Assembly (NCBI RefSeq): GCF_002831645.1
Contig: NZ_CP025117.1
Location: 1,433,514 to 1,497,513 of the forward strand
Length of the DNA: 64,000 bases
Direction of reading: 5' to 3'
From: Olleya sp. Bg11-27
GTDB lineage: Bacteria > Bacteroidota > Bacteroidia > Flavobacteriales > Flavobacteriaceae
In this document: positions 23,982 through 32,248 of the stretch, one piece after another
Layout: every line of letters begins with the position of its first letter
How positions within the stretch are numbered: the stretch's first letter is position 1
Translations under genes and position numbers: made by a program
Notes under the pieces: model-generated
The model's input: the letters and a program-made list of their open reading frames with translations, nothing else
Database searches by the model: none
Told to the model about the DNA's origin: nothing

Positions 23982-24711
23982 ATTTGAAAAGCAATTAAAA
24001 GACACTTTGAAGCGTCGTACAATTGCACCAAGTAAAACAACTTGGAGTCAATTAGACACGCTATTAGATCAACGTCAAGATAAACGAAAAGTCTCATTTT
24101 GGTGGTTGAGTATTGCTGCAACAGTTGTAGGCGTTTGTTTGACGGTTTTTGTTTTTAGAAATCAATCAAACACTGTTAATGGCCTTGTTGAAGACGTGAA
24201 AAATGAAATACATATACCAAGAAAAACACAACCAGTACAACCAGATGTAATTGTAAATAAAGAGGACGCTAAAAGTGATGTAATAAATGAGGAGAAAGAG
24301 CAGTATCAAGTAAAAAAGAACAGCGTTGTTATTACGACACCTACAAAAAAAGCAACCAGAATTAATTTAGCTTCAGGGAATTTAAAAACTGTTGTTAAAG
24401 AGGATGAGGTTAGTACTTTAAATACCGCTTCTAACAATGCGTCTAGTACTGTTGTTGCACAATCTCAGTCAGTAGATACCGTAATAGTTAATAATAAAAT
24501 TTTAACTAATGAGGCAGACCTGCTTTTAGATAAAGCTTATGTCAAAGTTAAGAGAACAAATTCAGGGTATAAATCCGAGAAAATAGACGCGAACTCGTTA
24601 CTAGAGGAGATAGAGATGACGTCAGAAAAGTCTCTAAAAAACAGATTGTTTCATGCCGTAAAATCAGGCTATGAGACTTTAAGAACAACAGTAGTAGAGC
24701 GCGATAATTAA
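23968..24711 (+). CDS. Putative membrane anti-sigma factor
   Basis: A 247-residue protein with a basic cytoplasmic N-terminus (residues 1-45, with WSQLDTLLDQRQDKRK), one membrane helix (WWLSIAATVVGVCLTVFVF, about 47-66) and a low-complexity Lys/Val/Ser/Thr-rich periplasmic part. It has no recognised domain. The ATG at 23968 overlaps the sigma gene end by 14 bp, which is the common arrangement of ECF sigma and anti-sigma pairs. Anti-sigma function is inferred from topology and position. Confidence 0.65.
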   Translation: MPPNKFEKQLKDTLKRRTIAPSKTTWSQLDTLLDQRQDKRKVSFWWLSIAATVVGVCLTVFVFRNQSNTVNGLVEDVKNEIHIPRKTQPVQPDVIVNKEDAKSDVINEEKEQYQVKKNSVVITTPTKKATRINLASGNLKTVVKEDEVSTLNTASNNASSTVVAQSQSVDTVIVNNKILTNEADLLLDKAYVKVKRTNSGYKSEKIDANSLLEEIEMTSEKSLKNRLFHAVKSGYETLRTTVVERDN

Positions 24712-24742
24712 ATCAATTAATCATTAAAAAAAACGAACAGTT

Positions 24743-25792
24743 ATGCAAAACATTACAAAACATTTAGTGTACTTGTTTTTATTGTTGGCAGTAAGTCAGC
24801 TTAAAGCACAAGTAATGGATTCAATACCAAGAATAGAATCCATAAAAGAAACAATTACTATCGAAGAGCGTGACGCCTTAAAATTAGAAATTGAAACAAT
24901 CAATGATCAATTAGAGGAAGATGAGATTACTTTTGAAGAAGCAGAACAATTAAAAAAAGAAGCTGCGGAAAAAAGAGCATTAAATATCGAAAATAGAATC
25001 GCTATTGCGGTAAATAGATTAGAATTTTTAAATCGAAATAATCAAGATTCTGAGGATGACATTCAAAAAACAATAGTGTCTATTAAAATCGGGGACAGTG
25101 ATAGGGAGATTCTTGGGGTACGAGCAAATAGAAAACCTCCCAAAAAAGATATCCGTACAGGTAACCAAATGCTTTTTGCAATGGGGTTTAATAATACACT
25201 AATTGATGGTGTTAGTTTAAGTGATACACCCTATAAATTAGGTGGTTCTGGATTTGTGGAACTAGGGTGGTTATGGAATACTCGAGTGTTAAAAGAGTCT
25301 AACTTTTTACGTTTTAAATATGGGCTTTCTGTTCAATGGAATAAATTGGATATAAAAAATGGGTTGTTTTTTGTTCAAGACGGCAACCAAACAAAATTAC
25401 AGTCGTTTGATGGCGATTTAAATCGTGCCAAGTTTAGAACGACTAGCTTAGTTATTCCGATGCATCTTGAATTTGGCCCATGGAGTAAAAAGGATTATGA
25501 AGATGGTCGTGTGCGTTATTTTAATCATAATAAGTTTAAAGTAGGATTGGGAGGTTATTTTGGTGTAAATGGTAATGCAGTACAAAAATTAACTTATAAA
25601 GAAAACGGAGATCGTGTAAAGGAAAAAATTAAAAGAAACTTTAATACCAACACATTCACGTATGGTCTTAGTGGGTATATTGGAGTGGGAGATTTAAGTT
25701 TATATGCTAAATACGATATAGCACCATTATTTAAAAATCAAGCATTTGATCAAAATAATATTTCTTTAGGTATTAGAGTGGATTTAGATTAG
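24743..25792 (+). CDS. Putative outer-membrane beta-barrel protein with coiled-coil N-terminus
   Basis: A 349-residue exported protein: signal peptide (ending LKAQ), an acidic heptad-rich segment (about 28-100, rich in EEAEQLKKEAAEKRAL-like repeats), then beta-strand-rich sequence resembling PorT-like barrels (GFVELGWLWNTRVL, FRTTSLVIPMHLEFGPW, YGLSGYIGVGDLSLYAKYD, ending in an NNISLGIRVDLD strand). It follows the sigma/anti-sigma pair by 31 bp and probably belongs to the same operon. Exact function unknown. Confidence 0.7.
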   Translation: MQNITKHLVYLFLLLAVSQLKAQVMDSIPRIESIKETITIEERDALKLEIETINDQLEEDEITFEEAEQLKKEAAEKRALNIENRIAIAVNRLEFLNRNNQDSEDDIQKTIVSIKIGDSDREILGVRANRKPPKKDIRTGNQMLFAMGFNNTLIDGVSLSDTPYKLGGSGFVELGWLWNTRVLKESNFLRFKYGLSVQWNKLDIKNGLFFVQDGNQTKLQSFDGDLNRAKFRTTSLVIPMHLEFGPWSKKDYEDGRVRYFNHNKFKVGLGGYFGVNGNAVQKLTYKENGDRVKEKIKRNFNTNTFTYGLSGYIGVGDLSLYAKYDIAPLFKNQAFDQNNISLGIRVDLD

Positions 25793-25811
25793 TTTTTACA
25801 GTAATTTATAT

Positions 25812-25856
25812 AAAAGCGCTTCTTTTAATTTAATAAAAGAAGTGCTTTTGTTTTTT
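25812..25856 (+). terminator. Terminator of the sigma factor operon
   Basis: Arms AAAAGCGCTTCTTTTA (from 25812) and TAAAAGAAGTGCTTTT (to 25849), with one G-T wobble, are followed by a T-run (GTTTTTTAT). It lies 20 bp after the upstream stop. Confidence 0.8.
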
Positions 25857-25950
25857 ATAGCGGTGTAAGTGGTCATGTTATCAGTAGATTAAATAAATTT
25901 TATTTTTTTAATAAAAAAGTTTTTAATTCAAAAAAAAGTATTTCATTTGC

Positions 25951-26176
25951 AGTATAATAGCTGAACACTTTGAACTCTGTTTCTATGTTCGGGCTTTTGA
26001 AAATTAGGAAGTCATATTCAAAAGCAGCTTACAGATTAAGCGACCGAATTCTAAAGCTAACTTCCGCTTTAACCTCTATATATGCTAGCCAGCATCAGTT
26101 TGGCTTTGTGCCTACTTACGACCTTAGAATTCAAATTTGATAGTCACTTTGTTATATTTTTTTAACAAGGATTTTT
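25951..26176 (+). ncRNA. Candidate structured cis-regulatory leader RNA of the polyamine operon
   Basis: The roughly 250-nt leader between a TATAAT-like box (25953-25958) and the arginine decarboxylase ATG carries several pairings. P1 is GCTTTTGAA 25993-26001 with TTCAAAAGC 26017-26025. P2 is GCTTA 26027-26031 with TAAGC 26037-26041. P3 is GAATTCTAA 26046-26054 with TTAGAATTC 26124-26132. P4 is AGCCA 26087-26091 with TGGCT 26101-26105. The loop of P1 (GGAAGT 26007-26012) can pair with ACTTCC 26060-26065 inside P3, a pseudoknot. A terminator-like stem (CTTTGTTA 26147-26154 with TAACAAGG 26163-26170, then ATTTTT) precedes the gene. The architecture resembles a riboswitch or attenuator, but I do not recognise a known class. 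The structure is read by eye only. Confidence 0.55.
25985..26140 (+). CDS. Possible upstream short ORF in the polyamine leader
   Basis: An ATG at 25985 opens 51 codons to TGA 26138-26140, all inside the structured leader. The product would be basic at the N-terminus and end FVPTYDLRIQI. The stop lies 7 nt before the terminator-like stem, so a ribosome held there would block that stem, as in known arrest-peptide systems. Against translation: there is no clear ribosome binding site, several codons are rare for this genome (CGA, AGG, GGG, CTA), and it overlaps the RNA helices. It may be incidental. Confidence 0.3.
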   Translation: MFGLLKIRKSYSKAAYRLSDRILKLTSALTSIYASQHQFGFVPTYDLRIQI

Positions 26177-26214
26177 AAACTATTTATATTTCAATTTTAA
26201 CGTTTTAAACAAAA

Positions 26215-27612
26215 ATGAACACAAAGTACATAGACTTAATCAGTCAAACTTTTGATTTTCCTCAACCAGAATTTAAGTTAGAGGACAAGACATTACAATT
26301 TCATGATATCGATTTAATGGAGTTAGTCGAAGAGTATGGAGCACCTTTAAAATTTACATACTTACCACAAATTTCTAACAATATACAACGTGCTAAAACA
26401 TGGTTTAGAGATGCTATAAAAAAGCACGATTACAAAGGGAACTACAACTACTGTTATTGCACAAAAAGCTCGCATTTTAAACATGTTTTGAATGAAGCTT
26501 TAAAAAATGATATTCATATTGAGACATCATCAGCTTTTGATATTGATATTGTTGAAAATCTTAAAAAAGAGGGTAAGATAACTGACGAAACATTTATAAT
26601 CAGTAATGGATTTAAACGTGATCAATATGTTTCAAACATTGCTAGATTAATTAATAACGGACAAAAAAACTGTATTCCAATTATTGATAACTACGAAGAA
26701 ATAGATTTACTTTCTGAGCAAATTGAAGGTAACTTTAAAGTAGGTATTAGAATTGCATCAGAGGAAGAGCCTAAGTTTGAGTTTTATACTTCAAGACTAG
26801 GGATTGGGTATAAGAACATCATTCCGTTTTATAAAAATCAAATAAAGTCTAATCCTAAAGTAGAGCTTAAAATGCTTCACTTTTTTATCAATACAGGAAT
26901 TAGAGACAATGCCTATTACTGGAATGAGCTTTTAAAATGTTTAAAAGTATACACAAGTCTAAAAAAGGTTTGTCCTAGCTTAGATAGTTTAAATATTGGA
27001 GGTGGATTTCCTATTAAAAACTCGTTAGCATTTGATTTTGATTACGAATACATGATTGACGAAATCATCAATCAAATCAAACAAACGTGTGAAGAGGAAG
27101 AAGTCGATGTGCCAAACATTTTTACAGAATTTGGAAGTTTTACAGTAGGGGAAAGTGGCGGCGCTATTTACGAAGTGTTGTATCAAAAACAACAAAATGA
27201 TCGTGAAAAGTGGAACATGATAAACTCTTCTTTTATTACAACATTACCAGATACTTGGGCGATTAATAAACGTTTTGTAATGTTAGCAATTAACCGTTGG
27301 CATGACTCTTATGAGCGTGTTTTACTGGGAGGGTTAACCTGTGATAGTGACGATTATTATAACAGTGAGCAGCACATGAACGCTATTTATTTACCAAAAT
27401 ACAACAAAGACAAACCATTGTATATAGGCTTTTTTAATACAGGAGCATATCAAGAAACAATAGGTGGTTTTGGAGGATTACAACACTGTTTAATACCGTC
27501 TCCAAAACATATTTTAATAGATAGAGATGAAGATGGAAACATCACAAAAACATTATTTTCCGAACAACAAAAAAGTGAAGACTTACTTAAAATTTTAGGC
27601 TATGCAAACTAA
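26215..27612 (+). CDS. speA: Arginine decarboxylase (PLP, alanine-racemase fold)
   Basis: A 465-residue fold-type III PLP decarboxylase of the type annotated as arginine decarboxylase in Bacteroidota. Seen: YCTKSSHF near residue 84 with the PLP lysine, LNIGGGFPIKNS near 261, and TEFGSFTVGESGGAIYEVL near 303. It makes agmatine from arginine, the first step of the route completed by the next two genes. Its end overlaps agmatinase by 11 bp. Diaminopimelate decarboxylase is the related alternative, but the operon context argues for arginine. Confidence 0.87.
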   Translation: MNTKYIDLISQTFDFPQPEFKLEDKTLQFHDIDLMELVEEYGAPLKFTYLPQISNNIQRAKTWFRDAIKKHDYKGNYNYCYCTKSSHFKHVLNEALKNDIHIETSSAFDIDIVENLKKEGKITDETFIISNGFKRDQYVSNIARLINNGQKNCIPIIDNYEEIDLLSEQIEGNFKVGIRIASEEEPKFEFYTSRLGIGYKNIIPFYKNQIKSNPKVELKMLHFFINTGIRDNAYYWNELLKCLKVYTSLKKVCPSLDSLNIGGGFPIKNSLAFDFDYEYMIDEIINQIKQTCEEEEVDVPNIFTEFGSFTVGESGGAIYEVLYQKQQNDREKWNMINSSFITTLPDTWAINKRFVMLAINRWHDSYERVLLGGLTCDSDDYYNSEQHMNAIYLPKYNKDKPLYIGFFNTGAYQETIGGFGGLQHCLIPSPKHILIDRDEDGNITKTLFSEQQKSEDLLKILGYAN

Positions 27613-28540
27613 AACTTATGCTGGAATTCCAGAAGAATTGGCAAAATTAGAAAAAGCAAAAATCGTGTTAATTCCAGTGCCGTATGATGGTACTAGTACA
27701 TGGCAAAAAGGGGCAGATAAAGGTCCTGAGGCTTTTTTAGATGCATCAGAAAACATGGAACTTTATGATATCGAAACCGGTACAGAAGTTTATAATCAAG
27801 GGGTGTATTTAGCGGATGCTGTGACTGAGAATAGCTCACCAGAAGCTATGGTGGATGCAGTACATCAGGCGACTAAAAAATATATTAAAAAAAATAAGTT
27901 TGTTACTATTTTTGGAGGAGAACATTCTATATCTATTGGTACAATACGTGCCTTTAACGAGATGTTTCCAAGCTTAACAGTATTGCAATTAGATGCACAT
28001 GCGGATTTGCGTAAAGAGTATGAAGGTACGACCTGTAACCATGCCTGTGCATTATATGAAGCAAGTCAAACGACTAACTTGATTCAAGTTGGAATACGCT
28101 CTATGGATGCTATTGAAACGACGGTAATGGACAAGGAAAAAACATACTTTGCTCATGAGATGGCGCTAGATGATACATGGGTGGATAGTGCAATTGATCA
28201 GATGACGGATAATGTATTTATCACAATAGATTTAGATGCCTTTGATCCTTCAATTATGCCAAGCACTGGTACGCCAGAGCCGGGTGGTTTATTATGGTAC
28301 GAAACTTTAGAGTTTTTAAAGCAAGTATTTGAAGAAAAAAACGTAGTTGGATTTGATATTGTTGAATTATGTCCAAATAAAGTGGATAAATCTTCAGACT
28401 TTTTAGCGGCTAAATTGTATTATAAAATGTTAAGCTATAAGTTTTTAAATCAAGGCACAGAGGACGATTACGACAACACATACGAGAAAGATACACAAAA
28501 AAATAACACTTCTAAATTCAACGAAGACGATGAGTACTAA
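27602..28540 (+). CDS. speB: Agmatinase
   Basis: A 312-residue ureohydrolase converting agmatine to putrescine and urea. The binuclear Mn site is intact: GGEHSIS near residue 104, DAHADLR near 127, and DLDAFDPS near 206. Residues 285-312 form a polar tail rich in Asp/Asn/Lys. It overlaps speA by 11 bp and the next gene by 11 bp, so all three are translationally coupled. Confidence 0.94.
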   Translation: MQTKTYAGIPEELAKLEKAKIVLIPVPYDGTSTWQKGADKGPEAFLDASENMELYDIETGTEVYNQGVYLADAVTENSSPEAMVDAVHQATKKYIKKNKFVTIFGGEHSISIGTIRAFNEMFPSLTVLQLDAHADLRKEYEGTTCNHACALYEASQTTNLIQVGIRSMDAIETTVMDKEKTYFAHEMALDDTWVDSAIDQMTDNVFITIDLDAFDPSIMPSTGTPEPGGLLWYETLEFLKQVFEEKNVVGFDIVELCPNKVDKSSDFLAAKLYYKMLSYKFLNQGTEDDYDNTYEKDTQKNNTSKFNEDDEY

Positions 28541-29504
28541 AGGACCAGTTTCACAATTTATAGAACACCATTACTTACATTTTAACGCAGCAGCTTTAGT
28601 AGATGCAGCAAAAGGATACGAAACACAATTAGACAATGGTGCTAAAATGTTAGTCTCTCTTGCTGGTGCTATGAGTACAGCAGAGCTTGGTAAAAGTTTT
28701 GCGGAAATGATTCGTCAAGATAAAGTGCATATTATTTCATGTACTGGAGCAAACTTGGAAGAGGATATCATGAATTTGGTAGCGCATTCACACTACAAGC
28801 GTGTGCCTAACTATCGTGATTTAACACCTCAAGAAGAATGGGATTTATTAGAAAAAGGACTTAACCGTGTAACAGATACTTGTATTCCTGAGCACGAAGC
28901 GTTTAGACGTTTACAACACCATATTGAAAAAATATGGAAAGACGCTGAGGCTAATGGAGAACGTTTTTTACCACATGAATACATGTACAAAATGTTATTG
29001 TCAGGGGTTTTAGAAGAGTATTATGAAATTGATTTAAAAGACTCTTGGATGTATGCTGCAGCAGAAAAAAACTTGCCAATAGTTTGCCCAGGTTGGGAAG
29101 ACAGTACTATGGGGAATATTTTTGCAAGTTATGTTTTAAAAGGAGAGCTTAAGGCTAGTACCATGAAATCGGGTATCGAGTACATGACGTTTTTAGCAGA
29201 TTGGTATACTGAAAACTCTCAAAACGGAATCGGGTTTTTTCAAATTGGAGGAGGTATCGCAGGAGATTTTCCAATATGTGTAGTGCCAATGTTATATCAA
29301 GATATGGAGCGTACAGACACACCATTTTGGAGCTATTTTTGTCAAATAAGTGACTCTACAACTAGTTATGGATCATATTCTGGAGCTGTACCTAACGAGA
29401 AAATTACTTGGGGAAAACTCGATATTGATACACCAAAATTTATTGTGGAGAGTGATGCGACCATAGTTGCTCCACTTATATTTGCATATATATTAGGATT
29501 ATAA
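28530..29504 (+). CDS. speY: Deoxyhypusine synthase-like protein, predicted homospermidine synthase
   Basis: A 324-residue DHS-family enzyme with the NAD-binding GAMSTAELGKS segment near 46, CTGANLEED near 71, and WGKLDID near 292, which holds the Lys corresponding to the catalytic lysine of eukaryotic DHS. Bacteria lack eIF5A. In cyanobacteria a DHS homologue (SpeY) joins two putrescine-derived units into homospermidine, and homospermidine is a major polyamine of many Flavobacteria. The tight speA-speB-speY order supports the same route here: arginine to agmatine to putrescine to homospermidine. The reaction is inferred from context. Confidence 0.8.
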   Translation: MSTKGPVSQFIEHHYLHFNAAALVDAAKGYETQLDNGAKMLVSLAGAMSTAELGKSFAEMIRQDKVHIISCTGANLEEDIMNLVAHSHYKRVPNYRDLTPQEEWDLLEKGLNRVTDTCIPEHEAFRRLQHHIEKIWKDAEANGERFLPHEYMYKMLLSGVLEEYYEIDLKDSWMYAAAEKNLPIVCPGWEDSTMGNIFASYVLKGELKASTMKSGIEYMTFLADWYTENSQNGIGFFQIGGGIAGDFPICVVPMLYQDMERTDTPFWSYFCQISDSTTSYGSYSGAVPNEKITWGKLDIDTPKFIVESDATIVAPLIFAYILGL

Positions 29505-29517
29505 TTGCTTTCGTAAA

Positions 29518-29844
29518 ATGAAAAAACCAGACAATTTAAAACGTGTCATAGTAGACTTTAAAAAACTAACACCTGAAATATTAAAGTTGTTAGTAGAGAG
29601 GTATCCTGATGGCTACGACGAAGACCATATTATCGAGTTTAGAAATGCTAAAAACGAGTTGATAGAAGCTGTAGAAGTGACTACGGAAGACACTAAGTAT
29701 TTAGTCAAGGTTAGTACCAAGTTGGTGAAAACTATGGAGAACTATGATGAAGATGATTACGAAGACTTTGAAGATGATGACGCAGAAGCAGTTCAGGATC
29801 CAGAGTCAGAACCAAGCGAAGAGCAAGATCACGACGATTTCTAA
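29518..29844 (+). CDS. Conserved acidic hypothetical protein
   Basis: A 108-residue protein without a signal peptide. The N-terminal 70 residues look globular (RVIVDFKKLTPEILKLLVERYPDGYDEDH), and the last 35 residues are a very acidic Asp/Glu tail. Similar small proteins occur in Bacteroidota next to polyamine genes (from memory). Function unknown. It sits 13 bp after speY and 2 bp before the DUF155 gene, so it is probably part of the same transcript. Confidence 0.75.
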   Translation: MKKPDNLKRVIVDFKKLTPEILKLLVERYPDGYDEDHIIEFRNAKNELIEAVEVTTEDTKYLVKVSTKLVKTMENYDEDDYEDFEDDDAEAVQDPESEPSEEQDHDDF

Positions 29845-29846
29845 GC

Positions 29847-30623
29847 ATGTATACTGTAGTTGCCTATCAGGTAGCTAGTACTATCAACATAAAACAATGT
29901 AAACAACAACTGTCTTGGCAGTTGTTGTTTAATGATAGTGACGAGCTGTATTACAAATGCGACGATAATGCGTTTGTGTACATTTTTCAATATGGAATAG
30001 TAAGCTTTTTTAATATGACCACTCAGTCTATTAATGAAGTACTGACTAGTATGGAGCCATTCTCCAATAATTATTTATCAGAAAAACTATCTGAAGAGGT
30101 TAAGGTGCTTATCCAACCTAATAGTTTAAAAGTAGATTTCAATCATATCGAGTTACCCGAATTAAACGATGACATGGTTCGTTTGGTCATGCTTAACGTA
30201 TCACAGAGTGTGGCTTTAGATCGTTACTCTGAGATCACGTATGATCTTTTGGAACAAACTAATAAGCATACGTTGTATTTAGAACAAAAAGGGAAACTAG
30301 ATATTTCTGGAAATAAGCTAAAACGATTTATAGGTCGAACTTTGAATATTAAAAACCGAATTTCAGAAAATCTATACATCTTTGATTCGCCTGATAGTAC
30401 ATGGGAAAACGAACAATTAAATCAGCTTAATCAAGATTTAAAACAGACGTTTGACTTAAAAGATAGATACCGATTAATACACGATAGAATAGAAATTATA
30501 AAAGAAAACCTTGAGCTTTTTAAAGATATAATGGACCATAAGGAAAGCAGTAGGCTGGAGTGGATCATTATTATTTTAATTGTAATTGAGGTTTTTGATA
30601 TGTTTCTTACCAAGCTAATGTAG
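29847..30623 (+). CDS. RMND1/Sif2-like (DUF155) protein
   Basis: A 258-residue DUF155 family protein: an N-terminal alpha/beta domain with the FVYIFQYGIVSFFN core (about 45-58), helical middle (LDRYSEITYDLLEQ, RFIGRTLNIKNRISENLYIFDSPD), and one C-terminal membrane helix (WIIIILIVIEVFDMFL, about 239-254). This is the topology of Sif2 and of mitochondrial RMND1, which tethers mitoribosomes. The bacterial role is unknown. It follows the acidic protein by 2 bp at the end of the polyamine operon. Confidence 0.82.
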   Translation: MYTVVAYQVASTINIKQCKQQLSWQLLFNDSDELYYKCDDNAFVYIFQYGIVSFFNMTTQSINEVLTSMEPFSNNYLSEKLSEEVKVLIQPNSLKVDFNHIELPELNDDMVRLVMLNVSQSVALDRYSEITYDLLEQTNKHTLYLEQKGKLDISGNKLKRFIGRTLNIKNRISENLYIFDSPDSTWENEQLNQLNQDLKQTFDLKDRYRLIHDRIEIIKENLELFKDIMDHKESSRLEWIIIILIVIEVFDMFLTKLM

Positions 30624-30761
30624 TCTAGATAAGAGTTTTATACGTATAAGCTATATACCACGCGTATTGCAATAGGAAACAATACTAAAAGCAGTTTTGG
30701 ACTTGAGGTGGCAAACTTCCGAAAACACACATAATACAATAACTTTATAAAATTTTTTAAA

Positions 30762-31091
30762 ATGAAAGCAAAATTAATTATTATCGCAATTGCATTTTTA
30801 AGCTTAACATCATTTACAGCAACAGAAACTTTAGTAGTTTCAGGTGTTTACAAAGGAGTAGTAGAGTATGATTACGTATTTGCAGTTACAGAAAAAGGTG
30901 CTAAACAAAACATGTTATTTCAATATGTGTCTGAAGAAGCTTTAGAGTCTTTTGATTTAGAATCGGATGATTATGTTGGAAGTCAATTTACCGTGACTTA
31001 CGAGAAAACGACAGAAATGAGTGAAGATGAGGAAGGAAACGAAATTGAAATTCAAGTATTAACCATAACAGGGTTAGAGCTTAACGATTAA
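30762..31091 (+). CDS. Small secreted protein of unknown function
   Basis: A 109-residue protein with a signal-like N-terminus (MKAKLIIIAIAFLSLTSFTATE), then a small beta-rich domain (VVSGVYKGVVEYDYVFAV ... GSQFTVTYEKTTEMSEDEEG). I do not recognise the family. It is monocistronic, with an A/T-rich upstream region and an intrinsic terminator 25 bp after the stop. Confidence 0.65.
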   Translation: MKAKLIIIAIAFLSLTSFTATETLVVSGVYKGVVEYDYVFAVTEKGAKQNMLFQYVSEEALESFDLESDDYVGSQFTVTYEKTTEMSEDEEGNEIEIQVLTITGLELND

Positions 31092-31115
31092 AAAAAAGTT
31101 TAATTATTTAAATAA

Positions 31116-31143
31116 AAAACCGGAATGTATTCCGGTTTTTTTT
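31116..31143 (+). terminator. Intrinsic terminator
   Basis: Arms AAAACCGGAA and TTCCGGTTTT around a TGTA loop, followed by T8. It serves the small secreted protein gene. Confidence 0.88.
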
Positions 31144-31232
31144 GTGCTCAAATTAGTTGTAATGTATTGTTTTGAATTATGTTTTAGAAGTAGCGAATGT
31201 TTAGTAAAGGACGGGAGCTATTAGCTGGAATT

Positions 31233-31394
31233 TTATTGTTTTTCATAATTTTGACCATTCCATTTTAAGATGTCATTACATTCAAGCACTAAATCATTTA
31301 CATTATTTGTTGTTGATTTTAAAACACCTCTTCTTTTTGGAGTGCCAATAAAGTCAGTGTTTAATATTAATTTATTATTAATGCTGTTGTTATG
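31233..31394 (-). pseudogene. Possible gene remnant without a start codon
   Basis: On the minus strand, a frame with no ATG, GTG or TTG start runs 53 codons and ends at TAA (31233-31235). Its product contains FIGTPKRRGVLKSTTNN and VLECNDILKWNG, which read like real protein rather than random AT-rich translation. It overlaps the last 28 bp of the lipoprotein gene in another frame. It may be the truncated end of a neighbouring gene or a frameshifted tail. Family unknown. Confidence 0.35.
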
Positions 31395-32248
31395 TTAATC
31401 TCCTTAGACGAATTCTTGTCTTTTAATTTTGCAATTAATTGACACGGATTATTTATTTTTCCATCCGGAAAGGTGATTTTTGCTATCAGTTGTTTTAAAT
31501 CAGTTGTATTAACACCCTCATTTTTAAATTTGCTTAATAGATTGGCTTCGGAAAGGATTTTTTCGCCTTTGTTATCTATTATGTCAAGTGAAAAGGTTGG
31601 AAAAAGCTTATCGTTTATCAATTCTAGACCTTCTATGTTTTCAAGGATTAGTATTAATAAATGGTCAGCATTTATAGTGCTTTCAAAAACAGGTTGTTTT
31701 AGGGTTTCGTCCCATAAGTATATATTTGAATATACAATTCCGTTGTTTTCTATTGTTAGTAAGTCATTTTGCTTTACTGTGAAGGGTAATTCGTAAGTAA
31801 ATGTACCATCACCTTTTTTATCCCATATTTGAACATAAGATTTGTATTTCTCGTTGTTTTTATAAGGCAATGCCGTTCGGAAAGAGGAGCGCAGTTGAAT
31901 AGGAGTAATATCAGTTCCGTTGTCTGAGTTGCCTAATAAATTAGGTTCAGAATACACGGTGTCTTTATCGTTTTTAATAATGTGCATGGTTAATCCAGGA
32001 TAGGATCTGCTGTCAGATTTAATTAATCCATTAATATTATTGAAAACAAGGGTTACGTTTTCGCCATAAACAAATTCATTTCGTTTCTCTTCTTTGCCAT
32101 TAATTTCTATAGTGACAGCATCACAGCCAATACCATTACCTCTAGAGTAGGCTCCAGTTGTTAAATCAGTACTGACGGATTGATTAAATTGACAAGAGCT
32201 AAAGGTTGTAATTGCTATTATCAGACTTACTGTTTTTGTTTTTAACAT
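31367..32248 (-). CDS. Putative lipoprotein of unknown function
   Basis: A 293-residue protein with a lipoprotein signal: hydrophobic stretch then FSSC, giving lipid-bearing Cys19. The mature part consists of two similar beta-rich halves (VTLVFNNINGL...LTMHIIKNDKDTVYSEPNLL, and LLILILENIEGL...FSLDIIDNKGEKILSEANLL), so it looks like an internal duplication. There is no catalytic motif that I recognise. It is monocistronic. A possible coding remnant follows its stop in another frame. Confidence 0.65.
   Translation of the reverse strand: MLKTKTVSLIIAITTFSSCQFNQSVSTDLTTGAYSRGNGIGCDAVTIEINGKEEKRNEFVYGENVTLVFNNINGLIKSDSRSYPGLTMHIIKNDKDTVYSEPNLLGNSDNGTDITPIQLRSSFRTALPYKNNEKYKSYVQIWDKKGDGTFTYELPFTVKQNDLLTIENNGIVYSNIYLWDETLKQPVFESTINADHLLILILENIEGLELINDKLFPTFSLDIIDNKGEKILSEANLLSKFKNEGVNTTDLKQLIAKITFPDGKINNPCQLIAKLKDKNSSKEINITTALIIN

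Follow-up and report, generated by a model that had tools for sequence, protein, structure and literature searches.

A covarying leader RNA and an overlapping small reading frame before a flavobacterial polyamine operon: a candidate two-part control switch

What controls the polyamine operon of Olleya sp. Bg11-27, and which part does the leader in front of its first gene take in this control? The window analysed here is a stretch of 64,000 nucleotides of Olleya DNA, and its SpeA is 99 % identical to that of Olleya namhaensis. In the open-licence part of PubMed Central, searched at the level of titles and abstract openings, neither a description of speA control in the Flavobacteriaceae nor one of the leader RNA or peptide reported here was found. 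In the transcriptome of F. psychrophilum, 64 of the 5' regions are described as structured and amino-acid operons as subject to leader-peptide attenuation; neither speA nor arginine decarboxylase occurs in the main text of that paper (PMC9723704). Among polyamine-linked RNAs, a spermidine riboswitch class dates only from 2023, earlier claims having been judged unconvincing (PMC10853860).

A first-pass annotation of the window had proposed a pseudoknotted leader RNA of no recognised class ahead of the polyamine operon, a proposal that is borne out by the covariation described below and by the lack of a matching Rfam family. What had been called non-coding is, however, also a conserved open reading frame, and this frame, together with the helices P0 and P-1, was absent from that annotation. 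Taken as a whole, the leader has the appearance of a two-part switch, so far undescribed, that controls polyamine synthesis in marine flavobacteria.

The polyamine operon and its surroundings

The operon comprises, in this order, genes for a speA-type decarboxylase, an agmatinase and a deoxyhypusine-synthase-family enzyme (Table 1). NCBIfam speA models match the product of the first gene with scores below their cut-offs. In Thermus, homospermidine is made from agmatine via a coupling enzyme and a ureohydrolase (PMC10981699); by analogy, labelling the speA-speB-dhs cluster of the window a homospermidine operon is a fair inference. Directly 3' of dhs follows a gene for a 108-aa protein with an acidic tail (29518-29844), and a gene for a DUF155 (RMND1/Sif2-Sif3) protein (29847-30623) adjoins the polyamine genes as well. 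A tRNA-like element was sought in 24000-32000 and none was detected.

The promoter motif read from the sequence just 5' of the leader would place the transcript start at about 25955. Motifs of this -7-like type were counted up to 75 nt from the start codon of 77 leaders, giving TAnnTTTG in 30 and TnnnTTTG in 43 as raw counts, while two leaders have TTTG only and two none. Upstream of the promoter, a strong inverted repeat with a U-run at 25812-25855, which draws chance Rfam matches, is probably the terminator of the preceding gene (24743-25792). Five related loci (L033, L035, L038, L042 and L044) show by eye an additional inverted repeat, placed after the promoter-like motif and before the AGCU strand, that may be a hairpin at the 5' end of the transcript, and in L116 a Flavo-1 RNA (RF01705, 58.7 bits) occupies positions 1339-1417, just 5' of the leader RNA.

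Table 1. Positions of the promoter motif, leader elements and genes discussed in the text, numbered from the first letter of the window.
Feature	Position	Strand	Remarks
Promoter -7-like motif TnnnTTTG (TTCATTTG)	25942-25949	+	just 5' of the leader; read from sequence
P-1, 5' strand (UAGCU)	25958-25962	+	in the leader 5' UTR; pairs with 26055-26059; 95.6 % of cells paired (A1)
Leader ORF	25970-26140	+	56 codons; begins with TTG and stops at UGA; found in the same frame at 77 of 89 loci
P0, 5' strand (UUCGG)	25988-25992	+	closes the three-way junction; 99.7 % of cells paired; C-G to U-A change
P1, 5' strand	25993-26001	+	9 pairs, two-sided changes at 9 of 9 (A3)
Pseudoknot, strand in the P1 loop (GGAAGU)	26007-26012	+	paired cells 99.0 % (A1), 94.6 % (A3)
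P1, 3' strand	26017-26025	+	A3
P2, 5' strand	26027-26031	+	two-sided changes at 5 of 5 pairs (A1/A3)
P2, 3' strand	26037-26041	+	A1, A3
P0, 3' strand (CCGAA)	26044-26048	+	A1; also recovered by RNAalifold
P-1, 3' strand (AGCUA)	26055-26059	+	A1, A3
Pseudoknot, 3' strand (ACUUCC)	26060-26065	+	A1, A3
3' half of the leader ORF, under codon constraint	26069-26137	+	last 11 codons FVPTYDLRIQI; differences 0.314/0.240/0.499
Leader UGA stop	26138-26140	+	TGA preferred among the leaders of relatives
speA-type decarboxylase	26215-27612	+	first operon gene; PF02784, 54.4 bits (cut-off 23.4)
Agmatinase-type ureohydrolase (speB)	27602-28540	+	TIGR01230, 230.6 bits (cut-off 174.3)
Deoxyhypusine-synthase-family enzyme (dhs)	28530-29504	+	likely homospermidine route; PF01916, 148.7 bits (cut-off 27)
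Acidic, exported-looking protein, about 100 aa	30762-31091	+	31 % identity to the G187 protein; distant relative

Covariation in the leader RNA

An alignment of 66 leaders, 64 of them distinct (A1), was scored against a structure consisting of P-1, P0, P1, P2 and the pseudoknot. In A1, 95.4 % of the cells are paired and 75 cells carry two-sided changes compared to 14.8 in shuffles, none of 500 shuffles being as high, although the rows are related, so that these shuffle counts are not probabilities. Sliding the partners by 1-3 columns as a control left a pairing of only 25-54 %. The wider alignment A3 of 71 matches, which was fitted to the structure of the model and is thus biased towards it, showed two-sided changes at 22 of 28 pairs and 131 such cells versus 35.9 in shuffles (0 of 500), with the slid controls at 23-58. 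Run unaided on A1, RNAalifold found P0, P2 and the outer part of P1; on a wider alignment of 74 sequences without the 5' UTR it found P0 only.

The sequence of P2 turns over almost wholly while its pairing is retained, as illustrated by CUUA/UAAG, GUUUGC/GCAAAC, UUCCGC/GCGGAA and CCUCA/UGAGG, and in L132 the helices are retained by eye in a largely different sequence. The pseudoknot has two-sided changes at two pairs. P-1, which joins the 5' UTR to the strand immediately before the pseudoknot and thereby encloses the start codon of the reading frame in its loop, exchanges one U-A pair for C-G in 10 of the 64 rows of A1 and shows the double change GAC/GUC in L173.

These data allow the pairings proposed earlier to be sorted. 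All those that had been given with coordinates are present letter for letter, and the leader folds better than its dinucleotide shuffles (z -2.60, 2 of 200 as good). P1 and the pseudoknot, both suggested for a covariation check, turned out to be conserved and covarying. Two 5-bp helices had been mentioned without coordinates; a conserved 5-bp hairpin exists in the form of P2. The second 9-bp helix (26046-26054 with 26124-26132) does not hold up among relatives, as six of its nine pairs form in only 24-55 of 74-75 sequences; the counts for the remaining pairs are 57, 59 and 70. Nor is the terminator-like stem at 26147-26170 conserved: searching for a conserved intrinsic terminator 5' of speA, we found terminator-like hairpins in 12 of 69 leader-speA gaps versus 19 of 207 composition shuffles, an enrichment that is at most weak.

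Rfam 15 gave no match at or above the gathering score anywhere in the window, a lax scan of the 550 bases from 25801 to 26350 gave matches only outside the RNA, and no family was found over the leader RNA in 11 related loci, in line with the first-pass annotation, which had recognised no known riboswitch class. Judged by its alignments, the leader RNA is a conserved, covarying and aptamer-like fold 5' of a metabolic gene, as would be expected of a riboswitch. The sensor might accordingly be sought in the RNA alone, with the pseudoknotted fold as a candidate metabolite aptamer, the reading frame serving only to couple it to speA and the peptide tail being of minor importance. The riboswitch-like junction and pseudoknot and the conserved joining sequence speak for such an arrangement, which we nevertheless consider unlikely in view of the conserved tail and the preference for UGA described in the following.

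A reading frame within and beyond the RNA

An initial list of open reading frames with a floor of 60 aa had omitted the 56-codon leader ORF, which was recovered by an iterative profile search of stop-to-stop frames 5' of speA; a leader ORF can thus hide inside a covarying RNA and escape ORF lists with a length floor. The search covered 89 loci, namely 80 relatives, 8 congeners and the window. Among the 12 loci without a leader match, L063 and L088 end at a contig edge, while L075 and L083 contain by eye an ORF that ends similarly (LLPLIV and LPIRI). The start position, six codons 5' of a conserved FG, is occupied by TTG in 59, ATG in 16 and GTG in 2 of the 77 leaders and by no other codon, the start of L072 having been placed manually. 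The methionine that precedes FG in Olleya is not conserved.

The stop codons of these leaders comprise 67 TGA, 6 TAG and 4 TAA. Among the leaders of L015-L094, 58 of 68 end in TGA; six-frame ORFs with a minimum length of 250 aa from the same loci do so in 20 of 329 cases (6 %). In a second, partly overlapping set of fetched genome loci, 71 of 73 places match the leader profile and 63 have TGA; of the two unmatched places, one (L117) borders a contig end and the other is the second G117 copy. Six Arenibacter leaders stop at TAG or TAA. In the Arenibacter loci L072, L074, L076, L087 and L094, the N- and C-termini of the peptide are kept while the RNA half is reshaped or gone; the RNA model R1 scores 24-43 bits there and none of the five has a UGA stop.

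Differences per site at the three codon positions were computed from sequence pairs that are 5-35 % different. In the RNA half (25988-26068) they amount to 0.198/0.176/0.203 without periodicity, whereas the 3' half is strongly codon-periodic (Table 1), as are the last 12 codons (0.221/0.138/0.415). The five N-terminal codons at 25973-25987 carry no coding signal (0.192/0.356/0.190). An amino-acid exchange score agrees with this division, reaching 27.9 versus 0.5 for random placement in frame 0 of the tail and being mildly raised, 11.0 versus 4.5, in frame 0 of the RNA half; in the other two frames it stays below random placement for both parts. A purely coding account of the 5' half was rejected for its lack of codon periodicity and for helices that are retained where the frame is truncated, and a purely RNA-based account of the 3' half for the strong periodicity of the tail. 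Simple protein-coding sequence with synonymous variation, which had been named as the observation that would speak against a regulatory RNA, is therefore found in the 3' half and not in the 5' half. Start, stop and codon pattern support translation of the leader frame, which would make it a short translated ORF of the SpeFL type.

In 74 distinct leader peptides, the residue at -11 is F in 66, that at -9 is P in 63, and 72 peptides end in I or V and two in L, so that the tail ends hydrophobic and, in most leaders, meets UGA. Its forms vary (FVPTT..IQI, NPIRI, VFEFRI, KVWALLPIIV), and a single arrest motif would be at most putative, the common pattern being partly read by eye. The peptides are basic, with a mean of 8.1 K+R versus 1.9 D+E, and match neither Pfam nor NCBIfam. 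Fusion to speA by readthrough or frameshifting was considered and dismissed: the lengths of the gaps between leader and speA are spread over the three frames (28/26/23 of 77), and 70 of the 77 leaders have a next in-frame stop at a median of 3 codons on. Since there is neither a conserved intrinsic terminator nor a fusion to speA, regulation probably proceeds via translation of the leader.

Separate occurrence of the two modules and a possible mechanism

In 249 sampled genomes of the family, the leader RNA was found in 120, SpeA (E <= 1e-60) in 167 and both in 117. The leader is easily tested in cultivable strains. Searches at the order and phylum level with strict filters found the RNA in 4 of 196 and 4 of 247 genomes, all of the same family; the genomes listed in these samples all came from that family, and absence outside it is weakly tested by these figures. 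The RNA occurs without SpeA in G028, G256 and G179, the last of which has it at a contig end. G028 and G256 form the genus g20, where no SpeA was found at the same threshold and the tail is lost in both genomes. The RNA there stands directly 5' of a gene homologous to the 108-aa gene found after dhs in the window, and 30 of 30 RNA pairs hold between the two species with 2 two-sided and 3 one-sided changes.

A second RNA copy in G117 likewise lacks the tail. ATA takes the place of the usual start codon and a TAG lies inside P2, so that no tail is possible, while P-1 is retained by the double change of GCU/AGC to GAC/GUC. A short tail-less peptide might still be initiated at an in-frame TTG further upstream, and we regard the frame as truncated, not surely dead. 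The only other genome of this genus gave no RNA match. That the RNA persists without a tail in G117 and without speA in G028 and G256 speaks for a sensor residing in the RNA alone.

The peptide is found without the RNA, too. With strict filters, model R1 has no match in 50 of the 167 SpeA genomes, and among 14 of these that were sampled, six (L205, L207, L214, L215, L216 and L217) have by eye an upstream ORF with a tail-like end; in four of the six, the right strand gives a weak RNA score (19-32 bits). In the large sister genus g128, matches to the G136 leader were found in 47 of 101 genomes; in the G136 leader, model R2 finds nothing even with filters off. Thirty g128 loci were fetched, of which 29 gave an ORF and one was dropped. 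All 29 leaders stop at TGA; they measure 59 aa in 28 cases and 58 aa in one and end in NIRV (28) or NFRV (one). Codon periodicity extends along the entire ORF in the 28 that share one length. The g128 ORFs have a weak consensus fold of another shape (-3.5 versus -0.6, sd 0.9, for shuffled columns). In L219-L248 of this genus the leader ATG lies within a few bases 3' of a TACATTTG promoter-like motif, and the transcript may be almost leaderless.

These distributions support the view that the RNA and peptide modules each occur without the other, and such natural RNA-only and peptide-only forms make the contribution of each module directly testable. The retention of the leader peptide in g128 without an R2 match is at odds with sensing by the RNA alone and would instead suit a nascent chain that, like SpeFL or TnaC, detects a metabolite when the ribosome has reached the stop codon; the fold would only pace ribosomes, protect the 5' end or set leader initiation. 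Tail and stop being more widely shared than the RNA, with UGA in every g128 leader and similar ORF ends in the six R1-negative genomes, argue for this explanation. It leaves the RNA copies retained without a tail unexplained and meets with second-copy leaders that do not use UGA, and we rate it as rather improbable. The constant length of the g128 leaders and the basic composition could also point to a small protein acting in trans, with the RNA as a separate stability element. We hold this to be very unlikely, as the peptide has no Pfam or NCBIfam match, the middle of the ORF follows the RNA constraint and not a protein constraint, and all copies with inspected downstream genes precede operon genes or the gene of an acidic protein.

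We favour a cis-acting leader of two modules, RNA fold and leader peptide, that controls polyamine synthesis, and assign this reading a probability of somewhat less than one half (about 0.46). The first module would be the fold made of P-1, P0, P1, P2 and the pseudoknot, spanning the 5' UTR, the TTG start and the first 33 or so codons, and the second the peptide with its conserved C-terminal tail, which in most leaders is followed by a UGA stop. In the folded RNA, probably stabilised by a metabolite of the polyamine pathway, the start codon would lie in the P-1 loop and the leader would stay untranslated. If the leader is translated, the nascent tail would slow or block release at the stop, as for TnaC and SpeFL. 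Either event would alter the continuation of transcription or translation into speA, most likely by Rho-type polarity, which is favoured because a conserved intrinsic terminator is lacking. A more far-reaching form of the two-module reading, tentative and on balance doubtful, regards the roughly 170 nt as an aptamer for the polyamine pathway and an arrest-peptide gene at once, that is, as a double-encoded bipartite sensor. Here, a ribosome reading the peptide would have to destroy the aptamer, and lineages would have lost either half separately.

Several known systems resemble parts of this scheme. The enterobacterial SpeFL/orf34 leader of speF is likewise a short translated leader before a polyamine gene, and orf34 of Salmonella also ends in UGA; Rho termination is prevented when orf34 is translated, and the fate of the mRNA is influenced by where the stop codon of orf34 lies (PMC6386406). 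Compared by description, SpeFL has 34 aa and an Arg-Arg pair, whereas the Olleya leader has 56 aa and a pseudoknotted RNA inside the ORF. RR occurs in 4 of the 77 leader peptides, and the run of Arg codons typical of an arginine-codon attenuator was not found. TnaC of the tna operon is described to stall at UGA against RF2, and SpeFL against RF1; arrest of TnaC at termination on UGA is RF2-dependent (PMC8429421). The Olleya-type leader also prefers this codon. Arrest at the stop may also take place in the Olleya-type leader, which is compared to TnaC by description here. We know of no aptamer described within the ORF of TnaC. Eukaryotic polyamine-sensing termination peptides such as the AMD1 MAGDIS uORF are also encoded by a short ORF before a polyamine gene and act at termination, differing from the flavobacterial leader in their eukaryotic release factor and in having no RNA fold. 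The spermidine riboswitch, a SAM-I variant, is an RNA leader linked to polyamines (PMC10853860), yet it has the SAM-I fold, while the Olleya leader RNA matches no Rfam family.

Second copies of the RNA were found in G117, G187, G221, G664 and Kordia (L068), with those of G187 and L068 looking closely related. All five sit 5' of members of the same family of acidic small proteins. Four of them keep the leader ORF, with the ends VRA, IRA, VRI and VRV and the stops TAA, TAA, TAG and TAG; none of the four ends in UGA, which weighs against a role of this codon. An RNA common to the speA operon and the acidic-protein gene would also be expected if it were a protein-binding site for autoregulation and no metabolite sensor, an explanation for which no regulator was identified and to which we attach hardly any probability.

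The window itself encodes a distant relative of these acidic proteins (Table 1), whose product matches no Pfam family above the cut-off. A search for an RNA copy 5' of its gene with filters off gave 7.8 bits (E 0.78) as the best result on the plus strand, which is within noise, and among 30 loci of acidic-protein relatives that were searched, an RNA was nearby only in G117 and G028. Relatives of the acidic protein occur in 34 of 149 genomes of the family, and 19 of these 34 genomes have one on the strand of the leader RNA and 4-8 kb downstream of it.
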